A DNA stretch of 64,000 bases from Flavobacterium glaciei (lineage in GTDB: Bacteria > Bacteroidota > Bacteroidia > Flavobacteriales > Flavobacteriaceae): positions 62,001 through 126,000 of the forward strand of contig NZ_QQBA01000006.1 in NCBI RefSeq assembly GCF_003350545.1, written 5' to 3'. A model generated the notes under the pieces. The model saw nothing but the letters and a program-made list of their open reading frames with translations, did no database searches and had not been told where the DNA came from. This document shows, piece by piece, positions 2,675-58,401 of this stretch; within the stretch, counting starts at the first letter, position 1, and every line of letters starts with the position of its first letter. A program made the translations under genes and the position numbers.

Positions 2675-3352
2675 ATGAAAATAACATTTTACGGTCACGC
2701 GTCATTAGGAATTGAAGTTGGTGGCAAACACATCATTGTAGATCCTTATATTTCTGCAAATCCAAATGCAGCGCACATTGACATTGACACTTTAAAAGCG
2801 GATTATATTTTACTTACTCATGCACACGGAGACCATATTTTAGATGTTGAAGCAATCGCTAAAAGAACGAATGCGGTAATTGTTTCAAATGCTGAAATTG
2901 CGGGATATTATGGTGCCAAAGGCTTTCAATCACATCCCATGAATCACGGTGGAAGCTGGAATTTTGATTTTGGGAAACTGAAATATGTAAACGCGATTCA
3001 CTCTAGTTCTTTTCCTGACGGCAGTTACGGAGGAAATCCGGGCGGTTTTGTCATCGAGGGAGAACATAAAAACGTATACATAGCTGGTGATACGGCGCTG
3101 ACAATGGATATGAAATTCATTCCTATGCGTACTAAACTTGATTTAGCAATTTTGCCGATAGGCGATAATTTCACCATGGATGTCGAAGATGCCATTATTG
3201 CTTCTGATTTCTTGGATTGCGATAAAATACTTGGCTACCATTACGATACTTTTGGGTATATCGAAATTGACCATGAGGAATCTATTCGTAAATTCTTTAA
3301 CAAAGGAAAAGATTTGATGTTACTGGAAATAGGAAGTTCCATCGAATTGTAA
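2675..3352 (+). CDS. Metal-dependent hydrolase, UPF0173 (YtkL-like)
   Basis: A 225-residue metallo-beta-lactamase-fold protein of the UPF0173 family. The zinc signature HAHGDH is at residues 49-54. Further metal ligands are expected at the MNHGGSW stretch near 90, the AGDTAL stretch near 137 and a histidine near the C terminus (GYHYDTFGYI). Length matches the family (about 225-230). The substrate is unknown for the family. Its position between menA and menC is common in Flavobacteria by my recollection, but a role in menaquinone synthesis is only inferred. Confidence 0.9.
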   Translation: MKITFYGHASLGIEVGGKHIIVDPYISANPNAAHIDIDTLKADYILLTHAHGDHILDVEAIAKRTNAVIVSNAEIAGYYGAKGFQSHPMNHGGSWNFDFGKLKYVNAIHSSSFPDGSYGGNPGGFVIEGEHKNVYIAGDTALTMDMKFIPMRTKLDLAILPIGDNFTMDVEDAIIASDFLDCDKILGYHYDTFGYIEIDHEESIRKFFNKGKDLMLLEIGSSIEL

Positions 3353-3388
3353 TTTTTATTTGGAGCTATTCCAGCTATTCGTTGCAAT

Positions 3389-3435
3389 CTTTTATCACCC
3401 ATTCAGGTTTCGAAAACCTGACTGGGTGATAAAAG
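3389..3435 (+). terminator. Long hairpin after the hydrolase gene
   Basis: Arms 3389-3401 and 3423-3435 are perfectly complementary (13 bp). After one mismatch an inner 8-bp stem (3403-3410 with 3414-3421) continues it, closing on a 3-base loop. It lies 36 bases after the hydrolase stop. The following bases are only weakly T-rich, so it could be a terminator or a dispersed palindromic repeat. Confidence 0.55.
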
Positions 3436-3535
3436 GATTTTCACTGCTATCTGGGCTAGGGCTTGATAGTGCTAAATTGCTTAGTGACCTTTGCGAAAAA
3501 CGTTGTGAGCTTAGTGTTTAAATTTTATATCAATC

Positions 3536-4744
3536 ATGCAAAATAAATATTTCACTTTTCTGGTACTATTTCTTATTTCAATAAATACTGTTTTCTCTCA
3601 AAAAGACGGCTATTGGGATAAAACCCGCGCCACAACCGAAGAAATAACAGTTTCTGCCAGAGACAGAATCATCATAAAAACCCAAGATTTTCCTGAAGGT
3701 ACCACCGAAGTCGTTTGCAGAATAACACTTTTGGATAAAAATCAGCAAATGGCAGGCAGTTTAGTTTCGGTTTTAAAAGCTATTCCGGACCCAACGGGAA
3801 TTAGTCAAGGTTCAGCAGGAGCAGTTTTTATTTTGTCTAAAATTTCAGGAGATGATAAATGTAAATATGCTGTTTTCTCTAGCGCTGAATTAGCTGCTAA
3901 ATACAAAGAAAACGGAAAAACAGATGAAGCTTGTTTGGTGCAAGACACACCAGTCAGCAAGGATGCTAAACGACTTTCAACGGAGAAATCAGCTTGTATG
4001 CAATCAGGTTCTGGGAATTTATGGTTTGGTTTCGAAAGTAAAAACTGGATTATGAACCAAAAAATTATTCTGGAAGTCGTTCCTTGGGTCGATAATAAAC
4101 TCAGTCGCGGTTGGACGCTTGAAAACAGAAAAGCAATCATTGACCAATGTAAAACCTCTAATTTGGCTCAAAAAATGACCAATTCAGATGATTTTTGTGT
4201 TTGTATTCTCGATAAAATCCAATCCAAGTATACGTTTAAGGAATTCCAAAAATTATTGGCTGTAGAGCGTTCTAAAGCGTTTAAAGATTTTGGCAACAGT
4301 TGTTTTGGCGAAAGCAGTCTTTCTAAAAGCGTGTATGAAGATTTGCGTAAGCAAGCCGCTGCATTAGCAAAACAAGGAAAGCAAGGCGAAGCCATCATGA
4401 AACTGACTACAATAATCAATGACGGAAAAGCAACTGCGTTGGATTACAATGCAATAGGTAATAATTATCTTCTGACAAAGCAGTACGGGAAAGCGATTAA
4501 ATTCCTAAAAGAAGGCGAGAAGCTTGATAATACGGAGTTATTGATTCAAATGAATTTGGCACATGCCTATTTGTTAAATGATAATTATGCCTCAGCAAAA
4601 GCCATTTACAAAGAATATCAATCTCAAAATGTAACGGATAGCTTGAGTTGGACTCAAAAAATAAAACAAGATTTTATAGCTTTCAAAAAAGCAGGGATAG
4701 TTTCCAATGATTTTGAAAGAGTTTTGAAATTGATTGAAAAGTAA
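3536..4744 (+). CDS. Exported TPR-containing protein of unknown function
   Basis: A 402-residue protein with a clear N-terminal signal peptide (hydrophobic FTFLVLFLISINTVFSQ, cleavage after about residue 21), so probably periplasmic. The middle part (about 25-215) is unrecognised and has several cysteines that could form disulfides. The C-terminal third (about 285-380) reads as tetratricopeptide-like helices (ALDYNAIGNNYLLTKQYGKA, then LLIQMNLAHAYLLNDNYASA), which normally bind partner proteins. I do not recognise a specific family. It lies between the men genes on the same strand, but nothing in it suggests a role in quinone synthesis. Confidence 0.8.
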   Translation: MQNKYFTFLVLFLISINTVFSQKDGYWDKTRATTEEITVSARDRIIIKTQDFPEGTTEVVCRITLLDKNQQMAGSLVSVLKAIPDPTGISQGSAGAVFILSKISGDDKCKYAVFSSAELAAKYKENGKTDEACLVQDTPVSKDAKRLSTEKSACMQSGSGNLWFGFESKNWIMNQKIILEVVPWVDNKLSRGWTLENRKAIIDQCKTSNLAQKMTNSDDFCVCILDKIQSKYTFKEFQKLLAVERSKAFKDFGNSCFGESSLSKSVYEDLRKQAAALAKQGKQGEAIMKLTTIINDGKATALDYNAIGNNYLLTKQYGKAIKFLKEGEKLDNTELLIQMNLAHAYLLNDNYASAKAIYKEYQSQNVTDSLSWTQKIKQDFIAFKKAGIVSNDFERVLKLIEK

Positions 4745-4767
4745 AATTATTCTCTTTAAGGATTTAT

Positions 4768-4820
4768 CAAGTCGAGCGCAGTCTAGACTCATCAATTAGG
4801 TCTCGACTGCGCTCGACTTG
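4768..4820. repeat. Intergenic palindrome with a GAGCGCAGTC core
   Basis: Two 21-base arms (4768-4788 and 4800-4820) are complementary with a single mismatch around an 11-base loop. The arms contain GAGCGCAGTC, and the same core recurs as a half-copy at 61007-61025. It is GC-rich compared with its surroundings. There is no T-run, so a dispersed extragenic palindrome is more likely than a classical terminator, although it could stop transcription from 3536-4744. Confidence 0.65.
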
Positions 4821-4894
4821 ACAAGATTAAGTATTGCTTATTTTTTCATGCGAATATTTAACTCATAATTTATAACTCATAATTAATAATTTTT

Positions 4895-5941
4895 TTGAAA
4901 GCAACCTACCACAAATACATTTTAGATTTCAAACGACCATCAGGAACTTCCCGTGGCGTTATGACTGAAAAAGAAACTTGGTTTATTGTCTTGGAACAGG
5001 ACGGTAAAAAAGGAATAGGAGAGTGCGGAATCCTTCGCGGATTGAGTATTGATGATCGACCGGATTATGAAGAAAAATTACAATGGACTTGTGCTAATAT
5101 TCACTTGGGAAAAGATCTACTTTGGGAGGCTTTATTGGAGTTTCCTTCGATACAATTTGGGGTTGAAATGGCATTCCAATCTTTAGTGAGTGAAACTCCT
5201 TTTTTACTCTTTCCTTCTGACTTTACAAATGGTGTAAAATCCATCTTGATAAACGGTTTAGTTTGGATGGGTGAGGAAGCGTTTATGAAGCAACAAATAG
5301 AAGAAAAATTAGCTGACGGCTTTACTTGTATAAAACTTAAAATAGGCGCTATAGATTTCGATAAGGAACTGCAATTATTGCGATTTATAAGGCAACATTT
5401 CACTCCAGAACAAATCGAAATTCGGGTGGATGCTAACGGCGCTTTTGATTCAATTTTAGCTTTAAATAAATTAACGCAATTGTCTGAATTTAAATTGCAT
5501 AGTATTGAGCAACCGATACAAAAAAACAATACTGACAGGATGGCAGAACTGTGTAAAATCACTCCTTTTCCTATTGCTTTAGATGAAGAGCTAATAGGTG
5601 TGTTTACTTTGCCAGAAAAAGAACAACTGTTAGAGAAAATCAAGCCACAATACATCATTTTGAAGCCGAGTTTTGTAGGTGGTTTTCGAGGCACACAGGA
5701 GTGGATTTCATTGGCTGAAAAACATAAAATAGGGTGGTGGATTACCTCGGCCTTAGAGAGTAATATTGGACTCAATGCCATCGCGCAATGGACCTTTTTA
5801 CAGCATAATTTAATGCCTCAAGGATTAGGGACCGGAGCGCTTTATACCAATAATTTTGATTGTCCGCTGGAGGTTTCACAAGGACAATTATGGTATAAAA
5901 AAGAATTGAATTGGAAATTTGATTTCGATCTTTTACAATAG
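4895..5941 (+). CDS. menC: o-Succinylbenzoate synthase
   Basis: MenC dehydrates SHCHC to o-succinylbenzoate in menaquinone synthesis. The 348-residue product has the enolase-superfamily fold: an N-terminal capping domain, then a barrel with the lysine motif CIKLKIGA near residue 145, metal-ligand carboxylates in RVDANGAFD near 177, IEQPI near 205 and LDEEL near 230, and a lysine in ILKPSFVGG near 255. The start is a TTG at 4895; no in-frame ATG lies nearby and the protein begins as expected for the family from there. It converges with the AI-2E-type gene, leaving 23 bases between the stops. Confidence 0.92.
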   Translation: MKATYHKYILDFKRPSGTSRGVMTEKETWFIVLEQDGKKGIGECGILRGLSIDDRPDYEEKLQWTCANIHLGKDLLWEALLEFPSIQFGVEMAFQSLVSETPFLLFPSDFTNGVKSILINGLVWMGEEAFMKQQIEEKLADGFTCIKLKIGAIDFDKELQLLRFIRQHFTPEQIEIRVDANGAFDSILALNKLTQLSEFKLHSIEQPIQKNNTDRMAELCKITPFPIALDEELIGVFTLPEKEQLLEKIKPQYIILKPSFVGGFRGTQEWISLAEKHKIGWWITSALESNIGLNAIAQWTFLQHNLMPQGLGTGALYTNNFDCPLEVSQGQLWYKKELNWKFDFDLLQ

Positions 5942-54003: not shown

Positions 54004-54732
54004 TTAAAAATTTGGTGATAAATCGTATTTTTTATAAAAGGCATTTAGTACATCAACCACTTCATCCTCAGTATCTACAATTTTAAATAAATTCAAATCT
54101 TGAGGACTTACTGTGCTTTCTTTTTCGACTAAAACAGTTTTTATCCAATCTATTAATCCAGACCAAAAACTGGTACCCACTAGAATAATAGGAAACTTAG
54201 CAATTTTTTTTGTCTGAATCAAAGTTATCGCTTCAAACAATTCATCCATAGTTCCAAAACCTCCTGGCATCACTACAAAACCTTGTGAATACTTGACAAA
54301 CATCACTTTTCGAACAAAGAAGTAATCAAAATTCAGATTCTTATCACTGTCAATATAGGGGTTAAAATGCTGTTCAAAAGGCAATTCAATATTCAATCCC
54401 ACAGATGTTCCACCGCCAAGATGAGCACCTTTATTTCCGGCTTCCATAATTCCGGGACCACCGCCTGTAATTACGCCATAACCGGCTTTACTGATTTTAT
54501 ATGCAATTTTTTCTGCCAGTAAATAATTAGAATCCTCAGGTTTTGTTCTTGCGGAACCAAAAATAGAAACGCAAGGACCTATGCGTCCCATGCTTTCATA
54601 ACCGTTTACAAATTCGGCCATAATTTTAAAAATAGCCCAACTATCATTGGTTCTAATCTCATTCCAAGTCTTTCTTTTTAGTCGGTCTTGGATAACTTTA
54701 TCTTCATCATTGTCAAAATCTTCTAATCTCAT
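54004..54732 (-). CDS. LOG-family protein (TIGR00730 type), possible cytokinin-riboside phosphoribohydrolase
   Basis: A 242-residue Rossmann-fold protein. CVSIFGSARTKPEDSN near 53-68, GYGVITGGGPGIMEAGNKGA near 88-107 and the LOG signature MPGGFGTMDELFEA near 165-178 are all present. The family includes enzymes that release ribose-5-phosphate from nucleotide monophosphates such as AMP. The exact substrate in Bacteroidetes is not established. It is about 250 bases from the DUF559 gene, separated by repeat DNA. Confidence 0.9.
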   Translation of the reverse strand: MRLEDFDNDEDKVIQDRLKRKTWNEIRTNDSWAIFKIMAEFVNGYESMGRIGPCVSIFGSARTKPEDSNYLLAEKIAYKISKAGYGVITGGGPGIMEAGNKGAHLGGGTSVGLNIELPFEQHFNPYIDSDKNLNFDYFFVRKVMFVKYSQGFVVMPGGFGTMDELFEAITLIQTKKIAKFPIILVGTSFWSGLIDWIKTVLVEKESTVSPQDLNLFKIVDTEDEVVDVLNAFYKKYDLSPNF

Positions 54733-54765: not shown

Positions 54766-54860
54766 CAGGAGCTTAATCCTGCTGTCCGTTTTATCTTTTT
54801 ATTTTTTAAAGAAAAAAATAAAAAGGATGCCACTTCCATCAGGGCTAAAAATCGAGCCTG
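54766..54860. repeat. Flavobacterial-style intergenic repeat
   Basis: A small hairpin CAGGA...TCCTG (54766-54770 with 54777-54781) is followed by a long A/T palindrome (about 54793-54825, TCTTTTTATTTTTT against AAAAAAATAAAAAGGA) and a tail with GGATGCCACTTCCATC and CGAGCC. I recall closely similar blocks between genes of other Flavobacterium genomes, but could not check this here. There is no coding potential. It forms most of the 54733-54983 gap with the palindrome at 54915. Confidence 0.55.
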
Positions 54861-54914
54861 CTAAAGTAATTCTTTTTTTAAAACTGAAGCTTATTGATTT
54901 ACCACTTTTTTATT

Positions 54915-54956
54915 CCCCTCCTTTGGAGGGGTGCCCGCAGGGCGGGGTGGCTTTTT
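54915..54956 (+). repeat. Inverted GC-rich palindrome, left copy
   Basis: Begins CCCCTCCTTTGGAGGGGTGC, itself a palindrome (CCCCTCC against GGAGGGG), then a second GC arm (GCCCGC...GCGGG) and CTTTTTA. The same sequence occurs in opposite orientation at 55521-55567, with the DUF559 gene between. The left copy has a slightly shortened second arm. Confidence 0.85.
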
Positions 54957-54983
54957 ATTGGTACAATTTCAAATCTTATTTAC

Positions 54984-55409
54984 TTAACTACCAAACTCCA
55001 AAACAATATATTCCTCCAGCTCCTTCATCACATTATTCAAATCGTGTTTTATCCTTAAATCAGAAATCCGATATAACTTTAATCCTAAAGATATAAGATA
55101 CTCTTCTCTTTTTTTATCGTATTCTTCCTTGTTGTCATGACTTGAACCGTCAATTTCGATTATCAATCCCAACGTTTTGACGTAAAAATCTACGATATAG
55201 TTACCTATTATTCTTTGTCTGTCAAAATCTATTTTCCAAAATATTCCTTTATGAACTTGCAACCAAAAGATCACTTCTGAAAGCACACCTGCTTTGCGCA
55301 ATGCTCTAGCCCTAGATTTTAAGTTTATGTTGTAGGGTAAGTTTTCGATCAATTTTCTATAAATTGGCTTTCCGTTTACATAAGCGGTTATTTCTCGATT
55401 ACTTTCCAT
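54984..55409 (-). CDS. DUF559 endonuclease-like protein
   Basis: A 141-residue protein of the DUF559 family, relatives of very-short-patch-repair (Vsr) endonucleases. The PD-(D/E)XK-like core is visible: NYIVDFYVKTLGLIIEIDGS near 67-86 (Asp71, Glu83, Asp85) followed by YDKKREEYLISLGLKLYRIS near 95-114. The N-terminal basic part (SRARALRKAGVLSEVIFWLQ near 32-51) is also typical. It could nick or cut DNA. It is bounded by two inverted copies of a GC-rich palindrome (54915-54956 and 55521-55567), so it looks like the single gene of a small transposable or domesticated cassette. Activity is not shown. Confidence 0.88.
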   Translation of the reverse strand: MESNREITAYVNGKPIYRKLIENLPYNINLKSRARALRKAGVLSEVIFWLQVHKGIFWKIDFDRQRIIGNYIVDFYVKTLGLIIEIDGSSHDNKEEYDKKREEYLISLGLKLYRISDLRIKHDLNNVMKELEEYIVLEFGS

Positions 55410-55520
55410 ACGATTTGCTTTTTTTACATTCCTTTGATAGTAAGGGTTACAATTAAGTTGTTGCCGTTACTAGAGTTCAATTTACATAAAAAAGCCAATT
55501 TTTGCAAAAAATACAAAATC

Positions 55521-55567
55521 TAAAAACCACCCCGCCCGCCGCGGCGGGCACCCCTCCAAAGGAGGGG
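55521..55567 (-). repeat. Inverted GC-rich palindrome, right copy
   Basis: Reverse complement of the left copy with a fuller second arm (CCCGCCCGCCGCGGCGGGCA on the + strand). It ends two bases before the uvrA stop codon (55570-55572), so it could double as the uvrA terminator: CCCCTCC pairs with GGAGGGG. Confidence 0.87.
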
Positions 55568-55569
55568 AA

Positions 55570-58401
55570 TTAAACCAACTCTTTCTTTAAAAACTGAGCG
55601 GTATAGCTTTTTTTACTTTTTGCAACTTCTTCGGGCGTGCCTTTGGCAATCAGCTGACCGCCACCTTTTCCGCCTTCAGGACCAATATCTATGATGTAAT
55701 CGGCTAGTTTAATTACGTCCATATTATGCTCGATAATCAAAATCGTATTTCCTTTATCAACCAGTTTGTTAATAACTTCCATCAAAACTCTAATATCCTC
55801 AAAATGGAGTCCTGTTGTAGGTTCGTCAAGAATATAAAACGTATTTCCAGTGTCTTTTTTAGATAATTCTCCTGCTAACTTGATGCGTTGTGCTTCGCCA
55901 CCAGAAAGCGTTGTGCTTTGTTGGCCTAAAGTGATATAACCTAAACCAACATCCTGAATGGTTTTTACTTTTCTATAAATTTTCGGAATCATTTCAAAAA
56001 ACGGAACGGCTTCATCAACTGTCATATTCAATACATCCGAAATAGATTTTCCTTTATATCTAATTTCCAATGTTTCTCTATTAAAACGCTTTCCTTGACA
56101 GGTCTCACATTCTACGTAAACGTCTGGCAAAAAGTTCATTTCTATTGTTCGAACACCTGATCCTTCGCAGGTTTCACATCGTCCGCCTTTTACATTAAAA
56201 CTAAAACGTCCCGCTTTGTATCCACGAATCATACTCTCAGAAGTCATCGTAAACAGGTTTCTGATTTCGGTAAAAACTTCGGTGTAAGTTGCTGGATTCG
56301 AGCGTGGCGTTCTACCAATAGGACTTTGGTCAATATCAATCACTTTATCGATATGCTCTAAACCTTCAATTTTTTTGTACGGTTGCGGTTTTTTGACACC
56401 ATTAAAATAATACGCATTCAAAATAGGGTAGAGCGTCTCGTTGATTAAAGTCGATTTTCCACTTCCCGAAACTCCAGTCACGCAAATCATTTTACCCAAA
56501 GGCAATTCTATCGAAACATTTTTCAAGTTATTTCCGGTTGCTTCCGTTAGTTTTAGAAATTTTCCATTGCCTTCTCTTCGTTTTTTAGGAACCTCAATTT
56601 TCATTTCGCCATTCATGTACATCGCAGTAATAGTTTGGTGTTTCAAGATTTCGGCAGGTGTTCCTTTGCTGATAATTTCACCACCGTATTTCCCAGCTTT
56701 TGGTCCAATATCAATCACATAATCGGCGCGTTCTATCATATCCTTGTCATGTTCCACAACAATTACCGAATTTCCAATATCGCGTAATTGTTCGAGAGAA
56801 TGAATTAATTTTTCATTATCTCTTTGGTGTAAACCAATACTGGGTTCGTCTAGTATATACAAAACTCCAACCAATTGCGAACCAATTTGTGTGGCCAAAC
56901 GAATACGTTGTGCTTCACCACCAGAAAGTGATTTTGAGCTTCGGCTTAAAGCCAAATAATTTAAACCCACATTCATCAAAAAGTTCAATCGGTCCTTAAT
57001 CTCTTTGATTACTTCAGTCGCAATACGCTTTTGTTTATCAGATAGATGGTTGTCTAAATCATTAAACCAAACTGTCAAATCCGAAATGTCCATGTCGCAC
57101 AATTCGGTGATGTTTTTTGTGTTGATTTTAAAGAATTGTGCTTCTTTTTTTAATCGGGAACCTTCACAAACAGGACATTTTATTTCATCCATGAATTCCT
57201 TTGCCCAACGTTTTATGCTTGTTGAACCACTTTCATCATGTTGATTTTTTATGAAATGCGAAATTCCTTCAAAATCAATTTTATATTCTTTAGTAACTCC
57301 AGCTGTTTTCGATTCGATACTAAATTTTTCTTTGCCACCATTCAAAATCATTTCCATCGCCTCAGCAGGAATGGTTTCAATAGGATCAGTCAATTTAAAA
57401 CCGAATTTTTCGCCAATGGTTTCTAATTGCTTAAAAATCCAAGAGCTTTTGTATTCGCCCAAGGGAGCAAAACCGCCCGCTTTGATAGATAATTTCGGGT
57501 TTGGAACAATTTTTTTACTGTTGACTTCATTCACAGTTCCAAGTCCGTTGCAATGATCGCAAGCTCCTTTTGGAGAATTGAAAGAAAATAAATTAGGCTC
57601 TGGATTTTGATAGGAAATTCCAGTACTAGGACACATCAAGTTCCGACTAAAATAACGCACCTCATTCGAATCTTGGTCTAATACCATCAATACATTTTCC
57701 CCTTGATTCATGGCGGTATTGATACTTTCCATCAAACGTTTGGCGTTATCTGGCGTATCTTCAATTACCATTCGGTCCACAACAATTTCGATATCGTGTG
57801 TTTTGTAACGGTCGAGTTTCATCCCTAAAGTAATATCAAGCACGTCGCCATTTACACGTACTTTCAAGAAACCTTGCTTGGCAATTTGTTGAAAAAGCTC
57901 TGCGTAATGTCCTTTTCGAGCTCGAATTACAGGTGCCAAAATATTGATTCTTTTTCCTGCAAAATCCTGAATGATCAAATCCTTAATTTGTTCGTCAGAG
58001 TAAGAAACCATTTTCTCGCCACTGTTGTAACTATAGGCATCGGCACCACGAGCATAAAGCAAACGCAAGAAATCGTAAATTTCAGTAATTGTTCCTACCG
58101 TAGAACGTGGACTTTTACTAGTCGTTTTTTGTTCAATAGCAATCACAGGCGAAAGCCCGTCGATTTTATCAACATCAGGACGTTCTAATCCACCTAAAAA
58201 CTGACGTGCATAAGCAGAAAAAGTTTCTACATAACGGCGTTGCCCTTCGGCATAAATGGTATCAAAAGCTAAGGAGGATTTTCCAGAACCTGAAAGACCG
58301 GTAATTACAACCAGTTTTTCTCTTGGAATGGAAACATCTATATTTTTTAAGTTGTGCACGCGAGCGCCTTGAACTTCAATGGTATTGTCTTTGTCTAGCA
58401 T
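55570..58401 (-). CDS. uvrA: Excinuclease ABC subunit A
   Basis: UvrA is the damage-recognition ATPase of nucleotide excision repair. The 943-residue protein has two ABC modules: Walker [15 protein letters not shown] near 35-48 and [14 protein letters not shown] near 640-653; signature [12 protein letters not shown] near 490 and [12 protein letters not shown] near 830. CPVCEG and CETCEG zinc elements are present. Length is full. A TAACTTTG -7 box lies 18 bases before the ATG. The stop codon touches the right copy of the palindromic repeat. Confidence 0.97.

Follow-up and report, generated by a model that had tools for sequence, protein, structure and literature searches.

A DUF559 nuclease gene between inverted palindromes in Flavobacterium glaciei as a probable single-gene selfish element

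Background

Very many bacteria have intergenic regions filled with short GC-rich palindromes, which, apart from the REPs associated with RAYTs, are mostly of unexplained origin. In a stretch of 64,000 nucleotides of the Flavobacterium glaciei genome (contig NZ_QQBA01000006.1, positions 62,001 to 126,000; "the window" means this whole stretch), two palindromes in opposite orientation stand on either side of a gene for a DUF559 nuclease, next to the 3' end of uvrA. This locus raises the question of whether the gene and the palindromes form one mobile unit, and whether the nuclease could be the enzyme that moves it. A preliminary description of the locus had suggested a minimal mobile cassette that recalls REP-associated transposons, with a nuclease of another fold.

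Results

The features of the locus are collected in Table 1. As first described, the palindromes around the DUF559 gene are near-identical and inverted: an inverted-repeat finder paired positions 54908-54950 with 55532-55574 as arms of 43 nt that are 86% complementary, at a spacing of 581 nt. The distal copy (54913-54950) reads TTCCCCTCCTTTGGAGGGGTGCCCGCAGGGCGGGGTGG, the copy at 55527-55569 is its reverse-complement relative, and each arm was predicted to fold into two hairpins (z about -3). The DUF559 ORF is alone between the arms, its Vsr/DUF559-like nature is borne out by the Pfam match, and the coordinates agree with the placement of the right-hand copy two bases from the uvrA stop codon. 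The 17-nt core of the arm occurs at these two sites only in the window, compared with 0.02 expected, and none of 100 shuffles reached that number. For the palindrome type TTCCCCTCCNNNGGAGGGGTG, allowing up to two mismatches, the whole 3.14-Mb genome has just the two copies that frame the gene, and no orphan A copy was found in it. The arms are strong hairpins that adjoin T-rich stretches. Just outside the unit, the gap between uvrA and the LOG-family gene contains a Flavo-1 RNA (Rfam RF01705, E=8e-18; window 54771-54850, minus strand), and a similar repeat, 'tagcccagat...gatagctggaaatagctcc', is found beyond the unit in locus L013 and also in empty alleles.

Table 1. Positions in the window of the DUF559 unit, its parts and its neighbours
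Feature	Position	Strand	Remarks
DUF559 nuclease gene	54984..55409	-	141 aa; predicted EDxHD/Vsr-like fold; Pfam PF04480, E=4.7e-25
Distal palindromic arm, 3' of the DUF559 gene	54913..54950	+	TTCCCCTCC-TTT-GGAGGGGTGCCC-GCA-GGGCGGGGTGG; two hairpins
uvrA-proximal palindromic arm, 5' of the DUF559 gene	55527..55569	-	inverted relative to the distal arm; end 2 bp from the uvrA stop
Candidate decayed remnant of a duplicated uvrA 3' end (target duplication)	54862..54911	-	not significant in the window alone
uvrA, intact	55570..58401	-	3' end is the insertion site; stop codon 55570-55572
LOG/lysine-decarboxylase-like family gene (PF03641), downstream neighbour	54004..54732	-	directly after uvrA in empty alleles

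The residues E45, D74, E85, D87, H91 and D98 of the nuclease are invariant in an alignment of 36 relatives, and the dN/dS values at the uvrA site (0.04-0.11) indicate that the protein is maintained by purifying selection. A profile search of the PDB gave NGO0050 (3hrl, E=5e-26) as well as I-Bth0305I (3r3p, E=8.7e-5), which is a homing endonuclease, and the same two structures were matched by Foldseek (8.9e-5 for I-Bth0305I) with an AlphaFold2 model of pLDDT 92.7. The protein encoded in the window is thus predicted, from profile and model, to have the EDxHD homing-endonuclease fold, which has been described before (PMC3943268). DUF559 was earlier placed in the EDxHD group, DUF559 inteins being reported in Thermosynechococcus (PMC9403480), and the Caulobacter DUF559 protein VsrA is described as acting in a Vsr-like manner (PMC12907096). 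Recent spread by phages or plasmids was rejected, as phage and plasmid collections gave distant homologues only (<60% identity).

The association of the gene with the palindromes was followed in its 80 nearest DUF559 homologues in a collection with one genome per species (56-86% protein identity), the nearest of which are from Flavobacterium species. The framing of DUF559 genes that the preliminary description had proposed to look for was found: the same palindrome lies inverted on both sides of the gene in 68 of the 80 homologues, mostly within 130 bp, and on one side in 10, and the rest of the ~10-kb loci contains just 15 further copies over all 80. When, independently of any motif, the left flank was aligned with the reverse complement of the right flank, an inverted-repeat score of at least 20 was reached by 87% of 78 DUF559 loci and by 0.9% of 544 random windows from the same loci. 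Chance pairing of palindromes was ruled out by the shuffles, the framing counts and this random-window control. Judged by flanking genes, the 80 loci represent more than 20 genomic contexts, and the side of the gene that the hairpin faces varies with the palindrome type. Local amplification around the palindrome was also seen: positions 2890-5050 of locus L315 (G138:C1:95.9-98.1 kb) are a tandem array of ~15 units of 153 bp, every one of which contains a single, identically oriented A palindrome, and L016 has a shorter array of ~87-bp units.

Framing recurs in Alphaproteobacteria, Deinococcus and Cyanobacteria. Among 20 DUF559 loci of other phyla, taken from plasmid and chromid records, 13 were framed at a score of at least 24, compared with 15 of 770 control windows; the framed loci include those of Sinorhizobium meliloti, three Deinococcus, Novosphingobium, Sphingomonas, Azospirillum, Qipengyuania and Pseudanabaena, and the Sphingomonas sites lie between pntAA and pntAB, between sufB and sufC, and beside dnaG. 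By the inverted-flank score, no framing was found for the DUF559 loci of E. coli, Photobacterium, Shinella, Methylobacterium and Picosynechococcus. On pSymB of S. meliloti (L371, 840-1530), the DUF559 gene is framed by arms of 114 bp with two palindromes each, and this arm recurs at 508 places in 161 rhizobial records. These repeats are possibly the known RIME repeats. RIME and similar elements have been described as intergenic palindromic repeats of rhizobia (PMC2573895), and no nuclease assigned to RIME-type repeats was found in the papers considered.

Comparison of loaded and empty sites indicated that the arms and the gene were inserted together. The unit is present at the same uvrA site in nine other species, and in the relatives G017, G004, G002, G010, G003, G014 and G001 the uvrA-LOG gap measures only 15-168 bp and has no palindrome. 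Of the 11 loaded uvrA alleles examined, 8 have immediately outside the far arm a second copy of 58-106 bp from the uvrA 3' end, with the stop region included, at scores of 44-72 (L008-L011, L013-L015 and G007) against a null maximum of 15-19; the duplicate of L008 is identical over its last ~55 bases, and the duplication is absent from all seven short empty alleles. A second, independent case was found at a different site in L067, where a ~90-bp duplication abuts both arms. The location of the duplication beyond the two arms, both at uvrA and in L067, implies that the arms came in with the gene. In L017 the duplication is 145 bp long and includes a palindrome pair, while at most other loaded loci no target duplication was detectable, and the remnant in the window (score 17, null maximum 17) is at the noise level. 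Of what the preliminary description had proposed to look for in a mobile unit, empty sites are present in relatives, both at uvrA and in a helicase gene (see below), and target duplications exist, but these are long rather than short and have decayed in the window itself. The unit in the window is a single insertion of old date between two genes, and its duplication has decayed; the importance of the locus lies in the family to which it belongs.

Many members of this family are located inside host genes. An unbiased search found DUF559 in 80 of 150 Flavobacterium genomes, and about half of the strong matches, which were the ones examined, lie within long open frames. The hosts of these are methionine synthase (MetH), leucyl-tRNA synthetase (LeuRS), RecG and an AddA/UvrD-like helicase. 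In MetH the insert occupies residues 407-550 of L088 in place of 19 residues of human MTR, in LeuRS it lies between residues 301 and 478, and in RecG it spans 417-568, matching position 514-519 of T. maritima RecG. Of the 80 nearest homologues, 9 lie inside type ISP restriction enzymes, where they occupy at least two different positions and their palindromes are translated (SPPLEGCPQGGV..., ...PSKGGE). The alleles of the helicase, whose states were set by insert length, form a series at one site: empty 7-aa linkers with no palindrome (91% identical neighbours, G010), a 15-aa remnant, an in-frame palindrome pair of 30-32 aa without nuclease, and inserts of 147-203 aa with DUF559, besides two further alleles that are frameshifted. 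The genome of the window itself has a loaded helicase with DUF559 (contig C3), and a few B3-like orphan palindromes in the same genome (C5:196646, C1:28515 and C3:63044) match this helicase-borne DUF559. The 15-aa remnant of L181 (G069), SPPETSVLSKGVGNA, resembles a collapsed or excised in-frame unit. Two tandem DUF559 domains were seen in a single host ORF in L090, L095 (both MetH) and L171 (LeuRS), the last with two different arm types. Inteins were considered for the in-frame inserts and rejected: Pfam finds nothing but DUF559 in the insert, and since ~110 of the ~140-205 aa belong to DUF559, too little room is left for a splicing domain.

Eight arm types were recognised, seven of which were used in a strict test on a tree of 106 DUF559 domains. 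These seven types required 7 changes, compared with at least 31 in 300 shuffles, and the stand-alone A types alone required 3, compared with at least 7; the alignment behind the tree has few columns, and among the in-frame units there is partial confounding of host gene with nuclease clade. However, the presence of B3 arms in two host genes and of two arm types in LeuRS argues against simple inheritance with the host. Every clade of the nuclease has retained a palindrome type of its own. The same correspondence appeared in copy numbers, which were counted with loose palindrome patterns since the strict 37-nt pattern gives underestimates; a reversed-pattern control gave zero in every genome. 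A palindromes are present in all 21 genomes with an A nuclease (median 9, where framing alone accounts for two) and in 36 of 129 without it, and A2 palindromes in all 10 genomes with an A2 nuclease (median 12) and in 10 of 140 without it; genomes with the matching gene hold 185 of the 292 A copies and 106 of the 130 A2 copies. Of 36 additional genomes with A-type loci, 35 contain the palindrome, and four Chryseobacterium genomes have 21-37 copies. The contrary finding that the preliminary description had named, palindromes widespread without a link to DUF559, is not what is seen: the link is strong and type-specific, with orphans in some gene-less genomes. A few of the genomes with A palindromes and no A gene reach 6-12 copies, and to account for the 36 one has to assume that the gene was lost earlier or that a different mobiliser was at work.

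The A2 palindromes are not evenly spread and cluster near the A2 DUF559 gene (G145:C1:52-101 kb, with L310 and L311; G129:C1:2.41-2.57 Mb; G091:C20:37-78 kb), the cluster in G145 being a polysaccharide biosynthesis locus. Orphan A copies often form tail-to-tail inverted pairs with a spacer of 10-12 nt of differing sequence (L318, L319, L320, L317, L316 and L314), which are predicted to fold strongly (z=-9). This arrangement is opposite to that of the arms around the gene, and the model presented below gives no explanation for it.

Discussion

This work showed that the gene and its ends travel together and occupy many sites that are unrelated to one another and for which relatives have empty alleles, that palindrome pairs without the gene are found elsewhere in the same genomes, and that related units lie in frame in linkers of essential proteins. 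It is therefore probable that positions 54913-55569 are a single-gene selfish element, composed of a compact DUF559 nuclease and two cognate inverted palindromic ends, in which the nuclease mobilises its own ends. The preliminary description was right in substance, the idea of a minimal REP-like cassette with a nuclease of another fold being supported by the framing, the empty sites and the predicted EDxHD fold.

How such an element might move can be outlined as follows. The form in which the nuclease would recognise its palindromes is most likely that of an extruded hairpin or of two inverted sites paired with each other; the enzyme would nick or cut at the palindromes or at the target, and repair of widely spaced nicks or of a break could then copy the unit in. 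Staggered nicks would leave a long duplication, and otherwise a few linker residues would be cleanly swapped. The duplications are unusual in their length, which suggests widely spaced nicks or repair synthesis as a possible step. Palindrome pairs without the gene may be mobilised in trans.

The main rivals to this reading are homing into palindromes that already existed, and passenger status of the gene. In the first, the palindromes spread by other means, and a free-standing homing endonuclease gene invades existing pairs, so that the arms are its homing sites. Such a course could explain L017, where two 145-bp copies, each of host flank and a palindrome pair, enclose the gene, and would suit both the homing-endonuclease fold and the commonness of orphan pairs. 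However, the position of the duplication, outside both arms at uvrA and in L067, and the absence of the palindrome from the empty uvrA alleles and from the 7-aa helicase linkers are contrary to it, and we regard it as unlikely. Alternatively, the palindromes could be REP- or MITE-like repeats that are moved by an unrelated enzyme, such as a Y1/RAYT transposase, or by recombination, with DUF559 genes merely captured between them. Orphans in genomes without the gene would be expected in that case, and some Y1 transposase is present in 108 of the 150 Flavobacterium genomes. Against this stand the recurrence of one nuclease family between palindromes across several phyla, the tracking of nuclease clade by palindrome type and the strong purifying selection on the gene; furthermore, Y1/RAYT mobilisation was rejected for the genome of the window, which has no Y1_Tnp (PF01797) match anywhere. 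Passenger status is quite improbable. It is very improbable that the locus is a resident one, with a Vsr-like repair nuclease, as the example of VsrA (PMC12907096) and hairpins near T-rich stretches, read as terminators or regulatory sites, might suggest, given that arms are translated within ORFs of essential genes, that presence is patchy with empty sites, and that arms differ by clade and occur at many sites. An RNA-guided element like HEARO/omega-RNA was rejected because the arms match no Rfam family at the gathering score (a weak anti-hemB match was far below it), and a classical IS or MITE with a DDE transposase because the DUF559 ORF is alone between the arms and the duplications are of 58-145 bp or none.

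A much wider reading can also be put forward, which in our judgement is about evenly balanced between right and wrong: DUF559 nucleases might be the missing mobilisers of bacteria-wide GC-rich palindromic repeats, with arm-DUF559-arm units as the autonomous form and orphan palindromes as their non-autonomous offspring, able to invade essential genes in frame without splicing, and forming a class separate from IS elements, RAYTs, introns and inteins. A link between DUF559 and palindromes, or such a link for Flavobacterium palindromes, was not found in the open-access literature searched, which does not prove novelty. Palindromes that enclose one nuclease family, type for type, point to it as a testable candidate for their mover, and this offers a candidate function for a Pfam 'domain of unknown function'. 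The inserts also show that nuclease domains are tolerated in MetH, LeuRS, RecG and other core proteins, and should the nuclease prove specific in recognising its palindromes, this small enzyme might also serve as a tool.

Comparison with known systems

We know of no nuclease for the Rickettsia palindromic elements (RPEs). Like the units described here, RPEs are palindromes inserted in frame and translated in protein-coding genes (PMC3733652), whereas DUF559 units encode a type-matched nuclease between their palindromes; in-frame insertion of this sort was found for related units, and the copy in the window is intergenic. The ShiLan-type insertion also carries an endonuclease without splicing domains and keeps the host frame, but its HNH endonuclease is read out of frame and resides in a phage, and palindromic ends are not reported in the part of that account considered here (PMC11855218). 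The 114-bp arms of the S. meliloti DUF559 gene resemble RIME in being multicopy palindromic repeats of rhizobia.

With the EDxHD homing endonucleases, such as I-Bth0305I and those of the DUF559 inteins of Thermosynechococcus (PMC9403480), the unit shares the predicted catalytic fold, the E-x-D...H...D motif, insertion in conserved genes, and empty and loaded alleles, and its membership in that family by fold and residues is indicated by the profile and Foldseek matches to 3r3p and by the invariant E85, D87, H91 and D98. It differs in lacking a surrounding intron or intein, in having palindromic ends of its own, and in the multicopy orphan ends. REPIN-RAYT systems are similar in their short inverted palindrome pairs, in a single-copy cognate nuclease gene beside its own palindrome class (PMC3116915), and in coevolving types and multicopy non-autonomous pairs, and in the DUF559 family, too, multicopy doublets are linked to the gene type. 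In contrast to REPIN-RAYT, the nuclease is EDxHD/PD-(D/E)XK-like rather than a Y1 HUH tyrosine transposase, the arms form inverted ends around the gene, units lie in frame in essential genes, and insertions leave long duplications; neither a GTAG nor a CGTC tag was seen in the arms. By analogy, the unit would work like a REPIN-RAYT system in which a homing-endonuclease-type enzyme has replaced the tyrosine transposase. As a whole, it is a member of neither group, because the RAYT transposase is absent and because palindromic ends of its own set it apart from the EDxHD homing elements known so far.
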